The notes under the pieces are model-generated. The model was not told the DNA's origin. It saw nothing but the letters and a program-made list of their open reading frames with translations, and ran no database searches. The translations under genes were made by a program, and so were the position numbers. From a virus, in the IMG/VR virus record IMGVR_UViG_3300037963_003617, positions 1-26,852 of that record: DNA of 26,852 bases, one strand, 5' to 3'. Positions 19,910-26,441 of this stretch are shown here, one piece after another. Within the stretch, counting starts at the first letter, position 1. Each line of letters begins with the position of its first letter.

Positions 19910-20020
19910 ATGATTGATTACGAGATGCTCTGTATTTTTGGCCTGATTGTGTGCAACGGCATGCAGTTGGCTACCATCTGGACCCTGCAAAAGAGGCTAG
20001 GCTATCATGTCGAGTATTGA
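19910..20020 (+). CDS. 36-aa membrane peptide, first early gene
   Basis: A very short gene with a perfect GGAGG at 19898-19902, 7 bases before ATG 19910. The peptide has one hydrophobic helix (about residues 6-26, containing LCIFGLIVCNGMQLATIW) and a basic tail QKRLGYHVEY. Its end overlaps the start of the Erf gene by 14 bases, so it would be translated first in the early operon. Function unknown; small phage membrane peptides of this kind can be exclusion or lysis-timing proteins, but nothing here shows which. Confidence 0.55.
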   Translation: MIDYEMLCIFGLIVCNGMQLATIWTLQKRLGYHVEY

Positions 20021-20570
20021 TGCAAAGCTTGCAGCCGCATTGGTCAAGGCTTGTGCTGCGCTTGACCCAGCACTGAAGAACAGCACCAACGCACACCTCA
20101 AAAATAGCTATGCTGACCTGCAGGCTGTGCAGGATGCTGCACGCAAAGCGCTCAGCCCCAACGGGCTGACATGGTATCAGGCCTGCATTAGCGAGGGTGA
20201 CAAGGTTGGCGTGCACACGTTTATTGTGCACACGTCAGGGGCAGTGCTTGACTGTGGCAAGTGCTTGATGCCTGTGCCACAGGCGAGAAATCAGGCCCAT
20301 GCAATCGGATCGATTCTCAGCTACACGCGCAGGTATAGCCTTGCTGCAGCACTGGGCATCCATCAGGCAGACCCAGACGCAAGCTTGCCCGATGAGACGC
20401 CGCAGCCCAAGAAGCGCAAGACGCTGGCAGGGCTGGGGCTGTCACCTGCTGACGTTGATGCGTTTATGGAGTCCAAAGGCAAGGCAGACAGGTGGGCAAC
20501 CATGAGCGCTGCCAAGCGTGGCAAGTTTTGTGACTGGGCTGAGAGCAACAAGGGCAAGGTGAAACCATGA
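20007..20570 (+). CDS. erf: Erf-family single-strand annealing protein
   Basis: A 187-aa recombination protein of the P22 Erf type. Diagnostic segments in order: KNSYADLQAVQDAARKAL (32-49), PNGL (51-54), a paired-strand region with VHTFIVHTSG (69-78), then QAHAIGSILSYTRRYSLAAALGI (96-118) and the acidic QADPDAS. The C-terminal 50 residues form a separate helical domain. Erf proteins form rings on single strands and anneal homologous DNA, aiding circularisation and recombination. It overlaps the upstream peptide gene and its TGA overlaps the next ATG. Confidence 0.85.
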   Translation: MSSIDAKLAAALVKACAALDPALKNSTNAHLKNSYADLQAVQDAARKALSPNGLTWYQACISEGDKVGVHTFIVHTSGAVLDCGKCLMPVPQARNQAHAIGSILSYTRRYSLAAALGIHQADPDASLPDETPQPKKRKTLAGLGLSPADVDAFMESKGKADRWATMSAAKRGKFCDWAESNKGKVKP

Positions 20571-21532
20571 GCGGAAGGGATAGCGTGCCAGAGGCTGGCA
20601 CTGCGCTGATTATGGCATCAGTGAGCGGGGGCAAAGACAGCACGGCAATGGCCTTGCACCTCAAAGAGTTGGGGCATGATTACAAGTGCACCTTCGCAGA
20701 TACCGGCTGGGAAGACCCTCAGACATATGACTACATCCGTGAACAGTTGCCAAAGGCTTTGGGTCCAATCAAATGGGTTCGCCAAGAGATTGAGCTTGAG
20801 GGTGAGCGTGAGGAGTTGGCGCAAAAGTATGAGGCCCGCCTTGGCTTCTACTCGCCTATGGTGCGCCTCTGCCTCAAAAAGAGCATTTTCCCAAGCAGGT
20901 TGAGACGCTGGTGCACCACTGAGCTAAAAGTCAAGCCGCTCAAGCAATACATGTGGTCATTCGATGATTACATGGTCAACGCTGTTGGCATTAGGGCTGA
21001 GGAGTCTGTGAGGCGTGCTCAAATGCCCATGTTTGAGTGGTCTGCCAGTATGAAGATGGACGTATGGAGGCCACTGCTTGACTGGAAACTGCAGGACGTG
21101 ATTGACATACACAAGAGGCATGGCATCAAGCCAAACCCAAAGTATCTGCAAGGGGCAGAGCGTGTGGGGTGTTGGCCTTGCGTCTTTGCTCGTAAGGCTG
21201 AGGTCAGGCGTCTTGGTGAGGATGATGTGCGCGTTGGCATCTTGCGTGACCTCGAGGTTGACATGACGCGCCTGCAGAATGACAAGCGGGTTGAGCAAGG
21301 CCTTGAGCCGGTTGAGGCCACGGGTTGGTTTCAGGCCCGCACGGGCTATGTGTACGATGCTGACGGCAACAAGAAGCGTGACGGTGGACGCTGGTCGATT
21401 GACAAGGTGGTTGATTGGTCGCGCACTGGCAGGGGTGGCAAGCAGTTTGAGATGTTTGCTGCAGCTGGCAGAGATGCTGGCTGTGTTCGCTGGGGGTTCT
21501 GCGACACTGGCAAAGACGGTGATGAGTCATGA
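20567..21532 (+). CDS. PP-loop ATPase, PAPS-reductase-like family
   Basis: A 321-aa enzyme with the adenylating PP-loop SVSGGKDST at 18-26, a conserved WCTTELKVKPL at 115-125, and a Cys pair GCWPC at 201-205. Together with Cys102 and Cys116 this gives four Cys that could hold an Fe-S cluster. The family includes PAPS reductase, DndC (DNA phosphorothioation) and tRNA thiolation enzymes; phage members are common but mostly uncharacterised. True PAPS reductases have a C-terminal catalytic Cys motif that I do not see. Its place beside two DNA methyltransferases makes a nucleic acid modification role plausible. ATG in an ATGA overlap. Confidence 0.75.
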   Translation: MSGRDSVPEAGTALIMASVSGGKDSTAMALHLKELGHDYKCTFADTGWEDPQTYDYIREQLPKALGPIKWVRQEIELEGEREELAQKYEARLGFYSPMVRLCLKKSIFPSRLRRWCTTELKVKPLKQYMWSFDDYMVNAVGIRAEESVRRAQMPMFEWSASMKMDVWRPLLDWKLQDVIDIHKRHGIKPNPKYLQGAERVGCWPCVFARKAEVRRLGEDDVRVGILRDLEVDMTRLQNDKRVEQGLEPVEATGWFQARTGYVYDADGNKKRDGGRWSIDKVVDWSRTGRGGKQFEMFAAAGRDAGCVRWGFCDTGKDGDES

Positions 21533-21568: not shown

Positions 21569-21589
21569 GGCTCAAGCAGGGGCAGGGTG

Positions 21590-22438
21590 ATGCGTGAGTT
21601 GGCGTGCTTTGCTGGAGCAGGTGGGGGGATTCTCGCCAGCAGCCTACTTGGTTGGTCTACGTTGGCGGCCATTGAGATTGAGCAGTACCCAAGAGACGTG
21701 CTCATCCAAAGGCAGAGAGATGGGTGTCTGTCAGCTTTCCCTGTTTACAGAGATATCAGGGAGTTTGACGGCAGACCGTGGCAGGGCATCATCGATGTTG
21801 TCTCTGGAGGGTTCCCCTGCCAAGACATCAGCTCAGCAGGTACGGGTCAAGGACTTGCCGGAAACCGTTCGGGCCTATGGTTTGAGATGCTCAGAGTTAT
21901 TGAGGAGGTCAGGCCTCGATATGTGTTCGCGGAAAACAGTCCGCACTTGCGTACCCGTGGCCTTGGCACCGTCATCAAAGGCCTTGCCAGCTTGGGGTAT
22001 GACACACGATGGTGCGTGCTGGGAGCTTGGCACACGGGTGCGCCCCACAAAAGAAACCGAATGTGGGTCTATGCTGCCCACTCCGACGTGCAACCCGTAT
22101 GGCAGCGACAGGGGCGGCAGACAGGGCAGGGTAGGCAAGTGGAGGCCAAAACTTGGGACGCTGATAGAGCGCAACATGTGGCCAACTCCTCAGTCATCGG
22201 ATTGCAGGGACAGGGGCCACATGGGCACCAAGGTGGTGCAACGCAGGATTGCAAACGGCAGACAGGTCAACTTGGGCATGGTGGTCAGCAACACCAGTGG
22301 GAAGTTGAACCCCGATTGGGTCGAGTGGCTAATGGGATGGCCAATAGGGTGGACCGACTTAGAGCCATTGGCAACGGACAGGTGCCACAATGCGCAGCGC
22401 TGGCGTGGCGCATCTTGCACGGGTCGCACAATGAGTGA
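21590..22438 (+). CDS. C5-cytosine DNA methyltransferase
   Basis: A 282-aa enzyme that methylates C5 of cytosine in a specific site, using S-adenosylmethionine. ATG 21590 chosen, AGGGG 7 bases upstream; a GTG one codon earlier is possible. Motifs in order: FAGAGGG (7-13), acid of motif II in AIEIEQYPRD, catalytic GGFPCQ with Cys77 (73-78), AENS (114-117), APHKRNRMWV (151-160), and AIGNGQVP (259-266). The target-recognition region (about 165-240) is short, Gln/Gly-rich and unlike a folded domain, and overlaps a second long open frame. The end overlaps the next gene by 8 bases. It may protect phage DNA from restriction. Confidence 0.9.
   Translation: MRELACFAGAGGGILASSLLGWSTLAAIEIEQYPRDVLIQRQRDGCLSAFPVYRDIREFDGRPWQGIIDVVSGGFPCQDISSAGTGQGLAGNRSGLWFEMLRVIEEVRPRYVFAENSPHLRTRGLGTVIKGLASLGYDTRWCVLGAWHTGAPHKRNRMWVYAAHSDVQPVWQRQGRQTGQGRQVEAKTWDADRAQHVANSSVIGLQGQGPHGHQGGATQDCKRQTGQLGHGGQQHQWEVEPRLGRVANGMANRVDRLRAIGNGQVPQCAALAWRILHGSHNE
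21795..22430 (+). other. second open frame inside the C5-methyltransferase gene
   Basis: In the +1 frame relative to the methyltransferase there is no stop from 21594 to 23246, so this frame is continuous with the SPPY methyltransferase downstream. An ATG at 21795 has AGGG 8 bases upstream. The translation carries segments that I recall as a recurring phage protein type: LSLEGSPAKTSA at the start, LPTPTCNPYGSDRGG (from 22074), a second WPTP, and LNPDWVEWLMGWPIGWT (from 22305). Whether this is translated protein or a by-product of the methyltransferase codons cannot be told here. Confidence 0.35.
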
Positions 22439-23246
22439 CGTGCGCCACGGTGATGCCCTCAAGCTTCTGCAGGCTATGGGTGATGAAAGCGTGCAGGCCT
22501 GCATCACTTCACCCCCATATTGGAAGCAGCGCAGGTACAGCAGTGATGACGAGCTTGGCCAAGAGTCTGACGCTGAGGCATACGTTGCGGGCCTTTGTGA
22601 TGTGCTGATGGAGGTGCACAGGGTGCTCAAGGACAATGGCACGCTTTGGCTTAACCTTGGTGACACCTATGCCAAGACTGGGCAGCTCAGTGGCATACCG
22701 TGGCGTGTTGCACTTGAGCTGCAGCGCAGGGGCTGGCTGCTGCGTCAAGACATCATCTGGCACAAGTCAAACCCAATGCCAGAAAGTGTACTGAATAGGT
22801 GCACCAGAGCGCATGAGTATGTGTTCATCTTGGCCAAGCAGAGACGGTATCTGTTTGATGTTGAGGCAATCAAAGTGCCGTCAACGGGTCGTAAGGTCAG
22901 CCAGCGTACGGTCAAGAGCGGCAAGGGGTTTGAGATACGCTCAGGCCTTGACAAGCTTGATGGTGAGATACGGCAGATGAGGCGCAGGCATAGCGTGTGG
23001 CGTGTGTCAGCAAGCAGGGACGCTGCAGCGGGTGACCTGCATGTTGCGCCATATCCTGAGCGGCTGGTTGCCCCGTGCGTATTGGCAGCAACCCAAGAGG
23101 GTGACACAGTGCTTGACCCGTTTTGTGGTAGCGGCACCACTGGGGCTGTGGCTGTCAGGCTGGGCAGGGAGTTTGTGGGGATTGACCTAGATGAGCAGGC
23201 CTGTGAGCACGCCCGTCAGCGCATAGATGGTGCAGCCAATGACTAG
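22431..23246 (+). CDS. SPPY-type (N4-cytosine or N6-adenine) DNA methyltransferase
   Basis: A 271-aa amino-methyltransferase of the beta order: catalytic SPPY at 27-30 near the N-terminus, a recognition region in the middle, then the AdoMet site LDPFCGSGTTG at 228-238 and FVGIDLDEQACEHAR. SPPY usually marks N4-cytosine enzymes, though some N6-adenine ones share it. ATG 22431 is supported by AdoMet-fold completeness and by the typical N-terminal RHGDALKLL; the frame is open for 279 codons upstream. Its stop is one base from the stop of the convergent minus-strand gene. Probably acts with the neighbouring methyltransferase to alter phage DNA. Confidence 0.88.
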   Translation: MSDVRHGDALKLLQAMGDESVQACITSPPYWKQRRYSSDDELGQESDAEAYVAGLCDVLMEVHRVLKDNGTLWLNLGDTYAKTGQLSGIPWRVALELQRRGWLLRQDIIWHKSNPMPESVLNRCTRAHEYVFILAKQRRYLFDVEAIKVPSTGRKVSQRTVKSGKGFEIRSGLDKLDGEIRQMRRRHSVWRVSASRDAAAGDLHVAPYPERLVAPCVLAATQEGDTVLDPFCGSGTTGAVAVRLGREFVGIDLDEQACEHARQRIDGAAND

Positions 23247-23600: not shown

Positions 23601-23816
23601 ATGAGCAACGCACAGCAGAGCAGGGCAACAAGGGTGCAGCAGGCGCACATCATGCGTGTGCTGTCTAGGTGCGGCAGTTGGCACACCACTGATGACGTGG
23701 CACGGCACTGCTACTGGTCAAGGCTGACCGTGTGGCGCAGGCTGCGTGAGCTTGAGCAGGCAGGACGTGTGAGCTGCAGGCGTGTGGGTGAGTGCAGATG
23801 GAGGGTGGCCCAGTGA
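23601..23816 (+). CDS. small winged-helix DNA-binding protein
   Basis: A 71-aa, Arg-rich protein. Residues about 15-70 fit a winged helix: HIMRVLSRCG, a second helix TTDDVARHCYW, recognition helix SRLTVWRRLRELEQAG, then a wing RVSCRRVGECRWRVA. Such proteins repress or activate nearby promoters. It starts the last early block, divergent from the minus-strand LWGG gene (38 bases between start codons), and its TGA overlaps the GTG of the initiator, so it may regulate replication genes. Confidence 0.65.
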   Translation: MSNAQQSRATRVQQAHIMRVLSRCGSWHTTDDVARHCYWSRLTVWRRLRELEQAGRVSCRRVGECRWRVAQ

Positions 23817-24511
23817 AGTGGTTCAGATGTGATGTAGAGGCATGGGATGAGCTTGTGGAGGAGTGCCCCACAGTGCTGACAAGGCAGCAGGCCTGCATGG
23901 ACCTGAGACGCCACGCGCACGCCCACCTAAGTGAGCGGCAATACGCAGAGCGCTGGGGCTGGCACAGGTCCAGAGTGCGCAGGTTGATGAGGTCAGATGA
24001 GTGGCTTGACCCATACTCAAAACACCCGACCCAGAGCAGGCCCAAGCCCGACCCAAAACCGACCCAGCCAGCCCGTCAACCACGGGCAACCACAGAGCAA
24101 ACCGACCCAGAGCAGGCCCAGACCCGACCCACACCCGACCCAGCCTCTATATATAAGGATAATATCATATCTATATCTAATAAAGATACGTCTACTTTTG
24201 ATGCAGTGGTTGACCTTTGGAAGCAGTACAAACCCAAGGGGCCAAGACCAAGGCGCAGCAAGGGCGTTGGCAAGGCTGTGGCAGCTCGCATCGATGAGCA
24301 TGGGGCTGACAACGTGCGCAAGGTCATGACGTGGGCAATGACCAGCCAGCATGACCGTGCTGTATGGCTGAGAGAGAAGCACGGGCTGATGACCCTGATG
24401 AGGCCCGCAAACTTTGAGACCTACCTTGAGTTGAGTGAGCAGACCGTTGCCGCACGCGGTGAGTGGACTGACCACGGTGATGATGACAGCAAACGCCCAC
24501 TGCCATTCTGA
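23813..24511 (+). CDS. lambda O-like replication initiator
   Basis: A 232-aa protein; GTG 23813 chosen because GGAGG lies 8 bases before it and it overlaps the previous TGA. The N-terminal domain ends with a helix-turn-helix, SERQYAERWGWHRSRVRRLM (about 40-60), typical of phage replisome organisers that bind iterons. Residues about 70-112 are a Pro/Gln/Asp/Arg-rich linker encoded by the repeated DNA. The C-terminal domain (about 123-215; FDAVVDLWKQY, AARIDEHGADNVRKVMTWA, RPANFETYLELS) is of the kind that recruits the helicase-loader complex. The gene precedes a DnaC-like loader, as O precedes P in lambda. Confidence 0.8.
   Translation: MKWFRCDVEAWDELVEECPTVLTRQQACMDLRRHAHAHLSERQYAERWGWHRSRVRRLMRSDEWLDPYSKHPTQSRPKPDPKPTQPARQPRATTEQTDPEQAQTRPTPDPASIYKDNIISISNKDTSTFDAVVDLWKQYKPKGPRPRRSKGVGKAVAARIDEHGADNVRKVMTWAMTSQHDRAVWLREKHGLMTLMRPANFETYLELSEQTVAARGEWTDHGDDDSKRPLPF
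24026..24142. repeat. iteron-like direct repeats inside the initiator gene
   Basis: Six exact copies of CCGACCCA start at 24026, 24048, 24059, 24102, 24124 and 24135, spaced 22, 11, 43, 22 and 11. They form two triplets 76 bases apart; the longer unit CCGACCCAGAGCAGGCCCA occurs at 24026 and 24102. The copies fall in all three codon phases, so the repetition is of DNA, not of protein sequence. A degenerate copy (TTGACCCA) is at 24006. Placed like lambda ori iterons. Confidence 0.75.
24146..24188. other. AT-rich tract, candidate DNA unwinding element of an origin
   Basis: 36 of 43 bases are A or T, the most AT-rich stretch of this length I see in coding DNA of the window. It begins 3 bases after the last iteron-like repeat and contains TATATATAAGG and ATATCATATCTATATC-type runs. 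It encodes a short linker (SIYKDNIISIS). Iterons followed by an AT-rich stretch within the initiator gene is the lambda origin plan. Confidence 0.7.
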
Positions 24512-24525
24512 GAGGAGCAACACAG

Positions 24526-25563
24526 ATGCGGTACAACGTGAGAGACAAGAGCAAGCAGCCACCAAGCATGATATGCCCAAGGTGCGGCAAGCAGCATGAT
24601 TGGTGGTGGCAGGGTAGCTTTGAGCCAAGACCTGGGCTGCAGCTGGGCAACCACTGGGTCAAGCCAAGCATTGGGCCGATTGAGAATGACCCCAACATTG
24701 TGGCATGCCCACGCTGCAAGGCTGGTGCTGAGCATGAAGTCAAAGAGGGCAAGATGCTTGCCAAGCTCAAGCGCATGGGCGTGCCTAAGCGCTGCAGGCC
24801 TTTTGGCCTCAAGGATATTGAGTATCAGCGGCCAGACTATGAGCCAACAGGCAGGTTTATTGAGCGTGTCAACAGTCATGTCAGGCTCTATGGGGTGCCA
24901 GAGTACAACCGTGAGACGGTTGAGGCTGTGGTGCGCTGGGTGCAGTGGCTCAAGGGTGAGAGCAGCAAGGATGATGAGCCTGCTGAGCGCAGTGTTGGCA
25001 TCTATCTGCATGGGCCAGTGGGTACAGGCAAGACCCTGCTCGCAAGCATGGTGTGCAGGGCACTGCTTGACAGGCCAGATATGGAGTGGACCAGATACAG
25101 TGATGAATACATCATGGCGCACAATGATGGCATCATGCCCACTGAGGCTGAGCTTGCTGAGGATGGCAGGTGGTGGGGCTATCGCATGCCAAAGGCTGTG
25201 CCGGTTTATTACATCACAGAGTCTGAGCTGCTACGCAGGCACAAGCTTAGCTGGCGCGGAGAAGCCAGCCCACTGGCTCAGGCTGCAACCCACAAGGGTT
25301 TGCTGATACTGGACGAGCTAGGGGCAACTAGTGCACCCCCTGGGCGCAAGGGGCCTGAGTGGGCGGTTGAGTCGGTGGAACGCTTGGTATCGCTCAGGTA
25401 CGACCGCTCACTGCCAACCATGTATACAAGCAACGTGCCGTATCGTGTGGCGCGTGGTGATGTAGAGGGCACGCCTGCGCCTTGGGGTGCTCGAGTGGCA
25501 GACAGGTTGCGCGGCAGCGTTGTTGGCTTGGCTCTCAAGGGGTCAAGTTGGCGCACAGTTTAA
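24526..25563 (+). CDS. DnaC-like AAA+ helicase loader
   Basis: A 345-aa ATPase expected to load the host replicative helicase at the origin. The N-terminus has two CxxC pairs, CPRC at 17-20 and CPRC at 61-64, likely one zinc site. Then Walker A GPVGTGKT (163-170), Walker B LLILDEL (259-265), and a sensor-type TSN (301-303) followed by an arginine-rich RVADRLRGS end. Gene order after the O-like initiator and before SSB supports the role. A longer than usual insert (about 185-255) separates Walker A and B. ATG with GAGGAG upstream. Confidence 0.85.
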   Translation: MRYNVRDKSKQPPSMICPRCGKQHDWWWQGSFEPRPGLQLGNHWVKPSIGPIENDPNIVACPRCKAGAEHEVKEGKMLAKLKRMGVPKRCRPFGLKDIEYQRPDYEPTGRFIERVNSHVRLYGVPEYNRETVEAVVRWVQWLKGESSKDDEPAERSVGIYLHGPVGTGKTLLASMVCRALLDRPDMEWTRYSDEYIMAHNDGIMPTEAELAEDGRWWGYRMPKAVPVYYITESELLRRHKLSWRGEASPLAQAATHKGLLILDELGATSAPPGRKGPEWAVESVERLVSLRYDRSLPTMYTSNVPYRVARGDVEGTPAPWGARVADRLRGSVVGLALKGSSWRTV

Positions 25564-25578: not shown

Positions 25579-25935
25579 ATGTTTTGCAATGTGACAGTCA
25601 TGGGCAGGGTTGGGCACAAGCCTGACCGCAGAGATAGTGGTGATTGGGGTGGCGTGACCAGTGTGCGGCTGGCAGTCACCAAGCTCACAAGGGGTGAGAA
25701 GGTCACCACATGGGTGCGCGTCAGTGCCTTTGGCAAGCTCGGTGAGTATCTGGCCCGCACAGATAAGGGGCTGAGGGTTCTGGTGAGTGGTGAGCTGTAT
25801 GCGCGTGAGTACACAAGCAAGGATGGCACGCCCAAGCAGAGCGTTGAGGTGATTGCCAAACAAGTGCAGCTGGTTGATTGGCCTGAGCCTGACAACAGCA
25901 TGAGTGATAGGCCTGATGATGACGTGCCGTTCTGA
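25579..25935 (+). CDS. ssb: single-stranded DNA-binding protein
   Basis: A 118-aa SSB with one OB-fold: N-terminal VTVMGRVGHKPDRR, then SVRLAVTK, TTWVRVSAFGKLGEYLA, and LRVLVSGELYAREYTSKDG. The short acidic tail ends DDDVPF, the tip that in bacterial SSBs recruits other replication proteins. It is shorter than chromosomal SSBs because the flexible linker is reduced. It covers single strands at the fork and for Erf-mediated annealing. ATG preceded by GTGGAGGTGG; its TGA overlaps the next ATG. Confidence 0.92.
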   Translation: MFCNVTVMGRVGHKPDRRDSGDWGGVTSVRLAVTKLTRGEKVTTWVRVSAFGKLGEYLARTDKGLRVLVSGELYAREYTSKDGTPKQSVEVIAKQVQLVDWPEPDNSMSDRPDDDVPF

Positions 25936-26441
25936 TGGGTGGCGCAAGTAGGTCAAAGGGTGCACGGTTTGAGCGCAGCGTTGTCAATGACTTGGCACGC
26001 TGGCTGGGCAGTGATTGGCAGGTGAAGCGCAACCCAACAGACAGGCAGCGTGGTGAGATGGGTGATGCTGGTGACGTCATTGTGACTGGCGGGCCTTTTG
26101 TGTTTCCGTTCTCAATCGAGTGCAAGCACTACCGTGAGCTTGGGCGTGAGTGGGTCATACGTCCTGACAAGGGACCGCTCAAGCGCTTTTGGCTGCAGAC
26201 ATGTGAGCAGGCCCGCATCGTTGGCAAGGTGCCACTGCTGTTGCTTAGGCAGGACCGTGGCACCACATGCGCTGTGATGCCAAAGGCTGCAGCCAGTCAG
26301 GTGGTCTGGCGTTGGTCGGTAGAGTGTAGGGTAAGGATGGAGGTGTACGGTGCTGAGCAGGTTGTATGCATCGTGCCTTGGTCTGAGTTGTGCAAGGTTG
26401 AGCCAATAGCCTTGGGAGAGTTAGCGCATGCCTGGGGTTGA
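25935..26441 (+). CDS. PD-(D/E)XK nuclease, likely Holliday-junction resolvase type
   Basis: A 168-aa basic protein. The nuclease core shows Glu13 in GARFERSVV, Asp47 in GDAGDVIV, and Glu62-x-Lys64 in FSIECKHY, the usual order for this fold; a Gln/Arg-containing helix follows (TCEQARIVGKVPLLLLR). Small nucleases of this kind in phage replication operons resolve or debranch recombined DNA, acting with Erf. Repair or restriction-like functions are alternatives. TGATG coupling with ssb; its end overlaps the next gene. Confidence 0.75.
   Translation: MGGASRSKGARFERSVVNDLARWLGSDWQVKRNPTDRQRGEMGDAGDVIVTGGPFVFPFSIECKHYRELGREWVIRPDKGPLKRFWLQTCEQARIVGKVPLLLLRQDRGTTCAVMPKAAASQVVWRWSVECRVRMEVYGAEQVVCIVPWSELCKVEPIALGELAHAWG

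Follow-up and report, generated by a model that had tools for sequence, protein, structure and literature searches.

Why should an 8-mer, CCGACCCA, occur six times within one protein-coding gene of a virus? We addressed this question in a virus record taken whole from IMG/VR (26,852 bases; the window), in which the repeats lie in a 232-residue, replisome-organizer-like open reading frame (23,813–24,511, plus strand, GTG start) with a helix-turn-helix (HTH) match to the SPP1 gp38 profile. An initial annotation had read them as a lambda-like replication origin hidden inside the initiator gene. The comparisons described below make it highly probable that the locus serves as a theta-type origin of replication, of the SPP1 oriL kind and lying within the initiator gene. 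This gives a phage for which the collections contain almost no relatives an origin that can be put to the test.

A phased repeat array under constraint at the DNA level

Searching both strands of the window, we found CCGACCCA on the plus strand at 24,026, 24,048, 24,059, 24,102, 24,124 and 24,135, and on neither strand outside 24,026–24,142 in all 26,852 bases. Six copies compare with 0.39 expected and with a maximum of two in 100 shuffles. Copies with one mismatch were not found near the array, nor was a second array found elsewhere in the window. Our recount agrees with the initial annotation on the copy number, on the spacings (22, 11, 43, 22 and 11), on the two triplets 76 bases apart and on the use of all three codon phases. 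Coding does not explain the array, as had been argued from the phases, and the constraint lies at the level of DNA: none of 2,000 synonymous shuffles of the initiator gene gave any 8-mer six times, and in 5,000 such shuffles no 8-mer had more than two copies that were followed 11 or 22 bp on by another, compared with four in the window. We also considered mRNA structure as the cause of the repeats and rejected it (z −1.4).

The triplets make up two 44-bp copies on the plus strand, 91% identical: 24,026–24,069 (iterons at 24,026–24,033, 24,048–24,055 and 24,059–24,066) and 24,102–24,145 (iterons at 24,102–24,109, 24,124–24,131 and 24,135–24,142). Their offset of 76 bp does not divide by three, so the copies are read in different frames. 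All four differences between them fall outside the 8-mers, an outcome with a chance of about 0.036. At 10.5 bp per turn, the six sites lie at 0, 34, 51, 86, 120 and 137 degrees. The proposal that they share one side of the helix thus holds within each triplet, whose sites deviate by no more than about 50 degrees from one face, but not between the triplets, which drift apart by 86 degrees (0–51 versus 86–137 degrees). One face per triplet, together with this offset, suggests two clusters of initiator on the array.

Directly 3′ of the array starts an AT-rich tract, a probable DNA unwinding element (24,146–24,198, plus strand), with 42 of 53 positions A or T and lying in the codons for SIYKDNIISISNKDTST. 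It is the most AT-rich 53-bp stretch of the window. Its part at 24,146–24,188, noted initially for its 36 A/T in 43 bases, is likewise the most AT-rich 43-mer, the next best having 31. GC skew was uninformative, with no change of sign at the array in this contig, which may be a fragment.

The initiator shares an HTH core with the gp38 family

The 232-residue protein has an N-terminal HTH, a disordered Pro/Thr/Asp-rich linker and a divergent C-terminal region, and gave no Pfam match. Close relatives of this protein, or of the helicase loader encoded next to it, were not found in the viral, genome and phage collections; a search with the portal protein recovered one 94% relative, L003, in which this region is missing. 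An alignment seeded with the window protein was too diverse for use in searching. Structure prediction from the single sequence performed poorly (mean pLDDT 44): the low-confidence model has helices at residues 24–36, 41–48 and 52–59 and almost no structure at 61–120, and a fold search with it returned no matches.

The route to a family led through the repeats. The pattern CCGACCCA-N3-CCGACCCA occurs in 43 stretches across all viral contigs, most of them not initiators; some lie in other genes, and some are tandems outside clear genes. A gp38-type gene was not found in 12 of 13 tested records with CCGACCCA tandems, so that the exact 8-mer is not diagnostic and proves nothing alone. Among the stretches, L024 stands out as an initiator: it is a fragment of an O-like gene whose linker carries the motif. 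Relatives of L024 led to Bacteroides phage BS-TP2, and the N-terminal domain of the BS-TP2 protein recovered SPP1 gene 38 as well as many genes of Bacillus, Staphylococcus, Vibrio and Sulfitobacter phages. We observed short 11-bp CCGACCCA tandem arrays with a fixed 3-base spacer (GTC, GTT, GTA or TTT) at L044:3135-3175, L033:314-354, L028:6744-6762, L031:5-34, L039:13216-13245 and L012:10322-10358; for the most part they lie outside clear genes, with no gp38-type initiator.

We built a gp38-type profile from 52 N-terminal domains and compared it with the window protein. The profile matches the HTH core LSERQYAERWGWHRSRVRRLMRS (23,927–23,995, plus strand), which probably holds the iteron-reading helices. 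With hhalign, the core (AERWGWHRSRVRRLM) aligned at a probability of 86% (E 4.8e-6), and hmmsearch gave the same core at E 2.4e-6, with shuffled or reversed controls at 0.02 or worse. The match covers the 23-residue HTH core; the remainder of the N-terminal domain is shortened, and neither the winged part nor the C-terminus is recognisable. A C-terminal profile of O-like proteins gave no significant match either. Because the match to this core is short, membership of the gp38 family is likely rather than firm.

The initial annotation had placed an O-like HTH in the repeat-bearing gene. The PHROG "O-like" match (phrog_678, E 0.007) belongs instead to a small ORF upstream, which encodes a 71-residue winged-HTH protein (23,601–23,816, plus strand; PF13412, E 1e-5), overlaps the initiator start and joins it via a GTGA junction. 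The 71-residue protein could be the source of the wing missing from the shortened HTH domain of the initiator.

Phasing at 11 bp across gp38-type genes

We surveyed 55 non-redundant gp38-type genes, 45 from viral contigs, picked by a protein motif blind to repeats, and 10 from named phages; L065, the phage PVL replication region, was excluded from every analysis. Identical 7-mers 11 bp apart occurred in the linker of 48 genes, where synonymous shuffles predict 10.5 (sd 2.8), and identical 7-mers 22 bp apart in 36, where they predict 6.2. In the part encoding the HTH, only four of these genes had 7-mers spaced by 11 bp. After thinning at identity cut-offs of 70, 50 and 40%, 11-bp phasing persisted in 39/45, 15/19 and 6/7 genes, respectively. 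Since neither 11 nor 22 is a multiple of the codon length, the phasing is a signal at the DNA level. The repeated letters differ between phages, for example AGCGGGACA in Sulfitobacter phage pCB2047-A (spacings 22, 11, 11 and 11), CACAGAA in Bacillus phage Page (11, 11, 11, 22 and 11), AAAAGACA in Staphylococcus phage phi879 (11, 11, 22 and 11) and CGAACCA in MT839942 (34, 11 and 11). In these relatives, the 50 bp past the array are on average 70% A/T; the array itself has 56%, and the gene 62%.

An alignment of iterons from 36 genes revealed a weak core, about N-G-A-A-A-C-purine with positions 3–5 loose, carrying 3.4 bits of information compared with 2.7–2.9 bits in column-permuted and 2.4–2.6 bits in half-reversed controls. 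The window iteron CGACCCAGA fits this consensus in the forward orientation, where only 0.25% of column-permuted controls equal it, and fits poorly in reverse.

By these comparisons, 11-bp phasing is a rule of the gp38-type family. We found no statement of this rule and core in the literature searched, a search that did not extend to the older SPP1 papers. The spacing of the window repeats had been taken at first as a possible different binding geometry. The phasing in the relatives, the fit of the window core to their consensus and a CCGACC array in the gp38-type gene of L137 (below) point instead to the normal geometry of a known family of intragenic origins.

A broader generalization, which we regard as evenly balanced between right and wrong, is that gp38-type organizers in phages of Firmicutes, Bacteroidetes and Proteobacteria have their origin as 11-bp-phased iterons in the linker codons, with letters that drift, presumably together with the HTH, around a retained core N-G-purine-N-(A/C)-C-purine. 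The window would then be a strongly diverged member that kept the DNA geometry but has a reduced protein domain, and origins and initiator specificity would become predictable from sequence alone. The survey itself shows a large initiator family in which the 11-bp DNA geometry within coding sequence stays fixed and iteron letters and linker protein vary freely; this would make sequence-based origin calls and studies of helix-to-iteron co-evolution possible.

The survey also bears on whether the repeats are functionless products of slippage or duplication in a growing low-complexity Pro/Thr/Asp linker. The 44-bp duplication is evidence of such events, and the linkers of some other O-like initiators contain plain 6-bp microsatellites (L048:814-1836, L052:1039-1818 and L055:1118-1806, from Pseudomonas, Stenotrophomonas and Aeromonas phages; GGGACA, GAGAAG and AGTGAT). 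In the window, however, the spacers vary while the cores stay identical, and a period of 11 or 22 bp that is no codon multiple recurs with other sequences in most relatives and rarely in their HTH-coding part. We therefore consider expansion without function improbable. In L055, the annotation splits the gene around the microsatellite into two pieces that lie in different frames.

Other spacings occur in the "primosomal protein I" genes of Pseudomonas phages (L049:1150-1848 and L060:1090-1800), where linker repeats CCCCGCAG and CCCCGGCA lie 16–17, 23 and 22 bp apart; these are probably another intragenic origin.

SPP1 oriL is the nearest proven precedent

Origins within initiator genes have been described for lambda O, SPP1 gp38, TP901-1 and Tuc2009, and one has been suggested in 80alpha (PMC6316719, PMC5499656, PMC8965321). 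SPP1 oriL was mapped experimentally inside gene 38 (PMC6316719), in which we find five consecutive 11-bp units, AGAAACGACAG, AGAAACGACAC, GAAAAAGACAC, GAAAAAGACAC and AGAAACGGATA, and then an AT-rich stretch. SPP1 and the window thus share 11-bp direct repeats in the initiator gene, an AT-rich stretch directly 3′, a helicase-loader gene next (PMC6316719) and a similar HTH core. They differ in iteron sequence (AAACGACA in SPP1, CGACCCA in the window), in the shortened N-terminal domain and unrecognised C-terminus of the window protein, and in that SPP1 has its own DnaB-like helicase and a second origin, oriR.

The L137 contig (IMGVR_UViG_3300012983_001628) carries a clear gp38-type gene (E 8e-36) whose linker contains CCGACC, nearly the motif of the window, seven times at spacings of 24, 68, 12, 11, 11 and 11. 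As in the window, CCGACC iterons lie in the linker, in L137 mostly 11–12 bp apart, and an AT-rich tract comes after them. L137 differs in having the full gp38 N-terminal domain and, as the next gene, one for a DnaB-like helicase where the window has its DnaC-like loader.

More distant parallels are TP901-1 ORF13 and Tuc2009 Rep2009, with direct-repeat origins within their own genes, and ORF20 of 80alpha, for which one is proposed (PMC8965321, PMC5499656). Like the window, these phages have a module with an annealing recombinase, an SSB and a RusA-like enzyme (PMC8965321, PMC5499656), in TP901-1 a Sak-like annealing protein, SSB, Rep and a RusA-like protein. The lactococcal and staphylococcal origin sequences differ from that of the window, and when TP901-1 rep was tested in the same way, no 11-bp array emerged. 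Among proven systems, the SPP1 gp38 "replisome organizer" and not lambda O comes closest, and on this comparative evidence the SPP1 type is the best placement for the window origin, as a new and diverged member.

Proposed mechanism and alternatives

The gene directly downstream of the initiator encodes a DnaC-like helicase loader (24,526–25,563, plus strand; phrog_50, E 3.2e-20), as the initial annotation had it and as in an SPP1-type origin. It is followed on the same strand by genes for a single-strand DNA-binding protein (SSB; 25,579–25,935; PF00436, E 1e-16) and a RusA-like/PDDEXK Holliday-junction nuclease (25,935–26,441; phrog_244, E 1.6e-19; PF24608). An ERF-type single-strand annealing recombinase (20,007–20,570, plus strand; PF04404, E 1e-18) belongs to the same replication and recombination module.

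By analogy with SPP1 and lambda, we infer the following course of binding, melting, loading and origin use. The 232-residue protein would bind through its N-terminal HTH to the six 11-bp-phased iterons (core CGACCCA) in its own linker codons. Stacked as two triplets, the bound proteins would put the AT-rich tract immediately downstream under strain, and this tract would melt. The DnaC-like protein would then load a DnaB-type helicase, presumably that of the host, since no helicase gene was found among the replication genes examined in the window. SSB, ERF and the RusA-like nuclease would serve a later, recombination-dependent phase.

A regulatory role, in which the repeats serve as operators or silencers and the initiator or the upstream 71-residue protein binds them to control the replication operon and not to start replication, seems to us very unlikely. 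A second DNA-binding protein is indeed encoded just upstream, and an initiator bound inside its operon would affect transcription too. The array nevertheless sits in mid-gene beside an AT-rich tract, as in proven origins, and a melting tract would be unnecessary for regulation.

Membership of the lambda O family is the least probable reading, hardly to be credited: ori-lambda does follow the same logic, with iterons and an AT tract in gene O and a loader gene downstream, but its iterons are annotated as 18 bp long and 20–24 bp apart (distances 20, 23 and 44 bp) against a linker period of 11 bp in the window, and the HTH core of the window protein, which is of a different family from lambda O, matches the gp38 profile. 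The literature regards SPP1 G38P and lambda O themselves as unrelated proteins with the trick of an intragenic origin in common (PMC5499656). Of the "lambda-like" label, an origin in the initiator gene beside the loader is thus retained, by anatomy and comparison; the likeness to lambda is one of analogy, and the 11/22-bp phasing is that of the SPP1 gp38 family. The anatomy of the window, with repeats, AT tract and gene order, is also the rule in gp38-type genes.

Further genes lie between the ERF recombinase and the initiator. A C5-cytosine methyltransferase ORF (21,587–22,438) overlaps a 550-residue ORF (21,594–23,246) for 0.8 kb in a different frame; the C-terminal part of the latter is an N4/N6 methyltransferase, and its long N-terminal extension is probably not real. 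A PAPS-reductase-domain protein (20,567–21,532; E 1e-23) is encoded between the recombinase and the methyltransferases.
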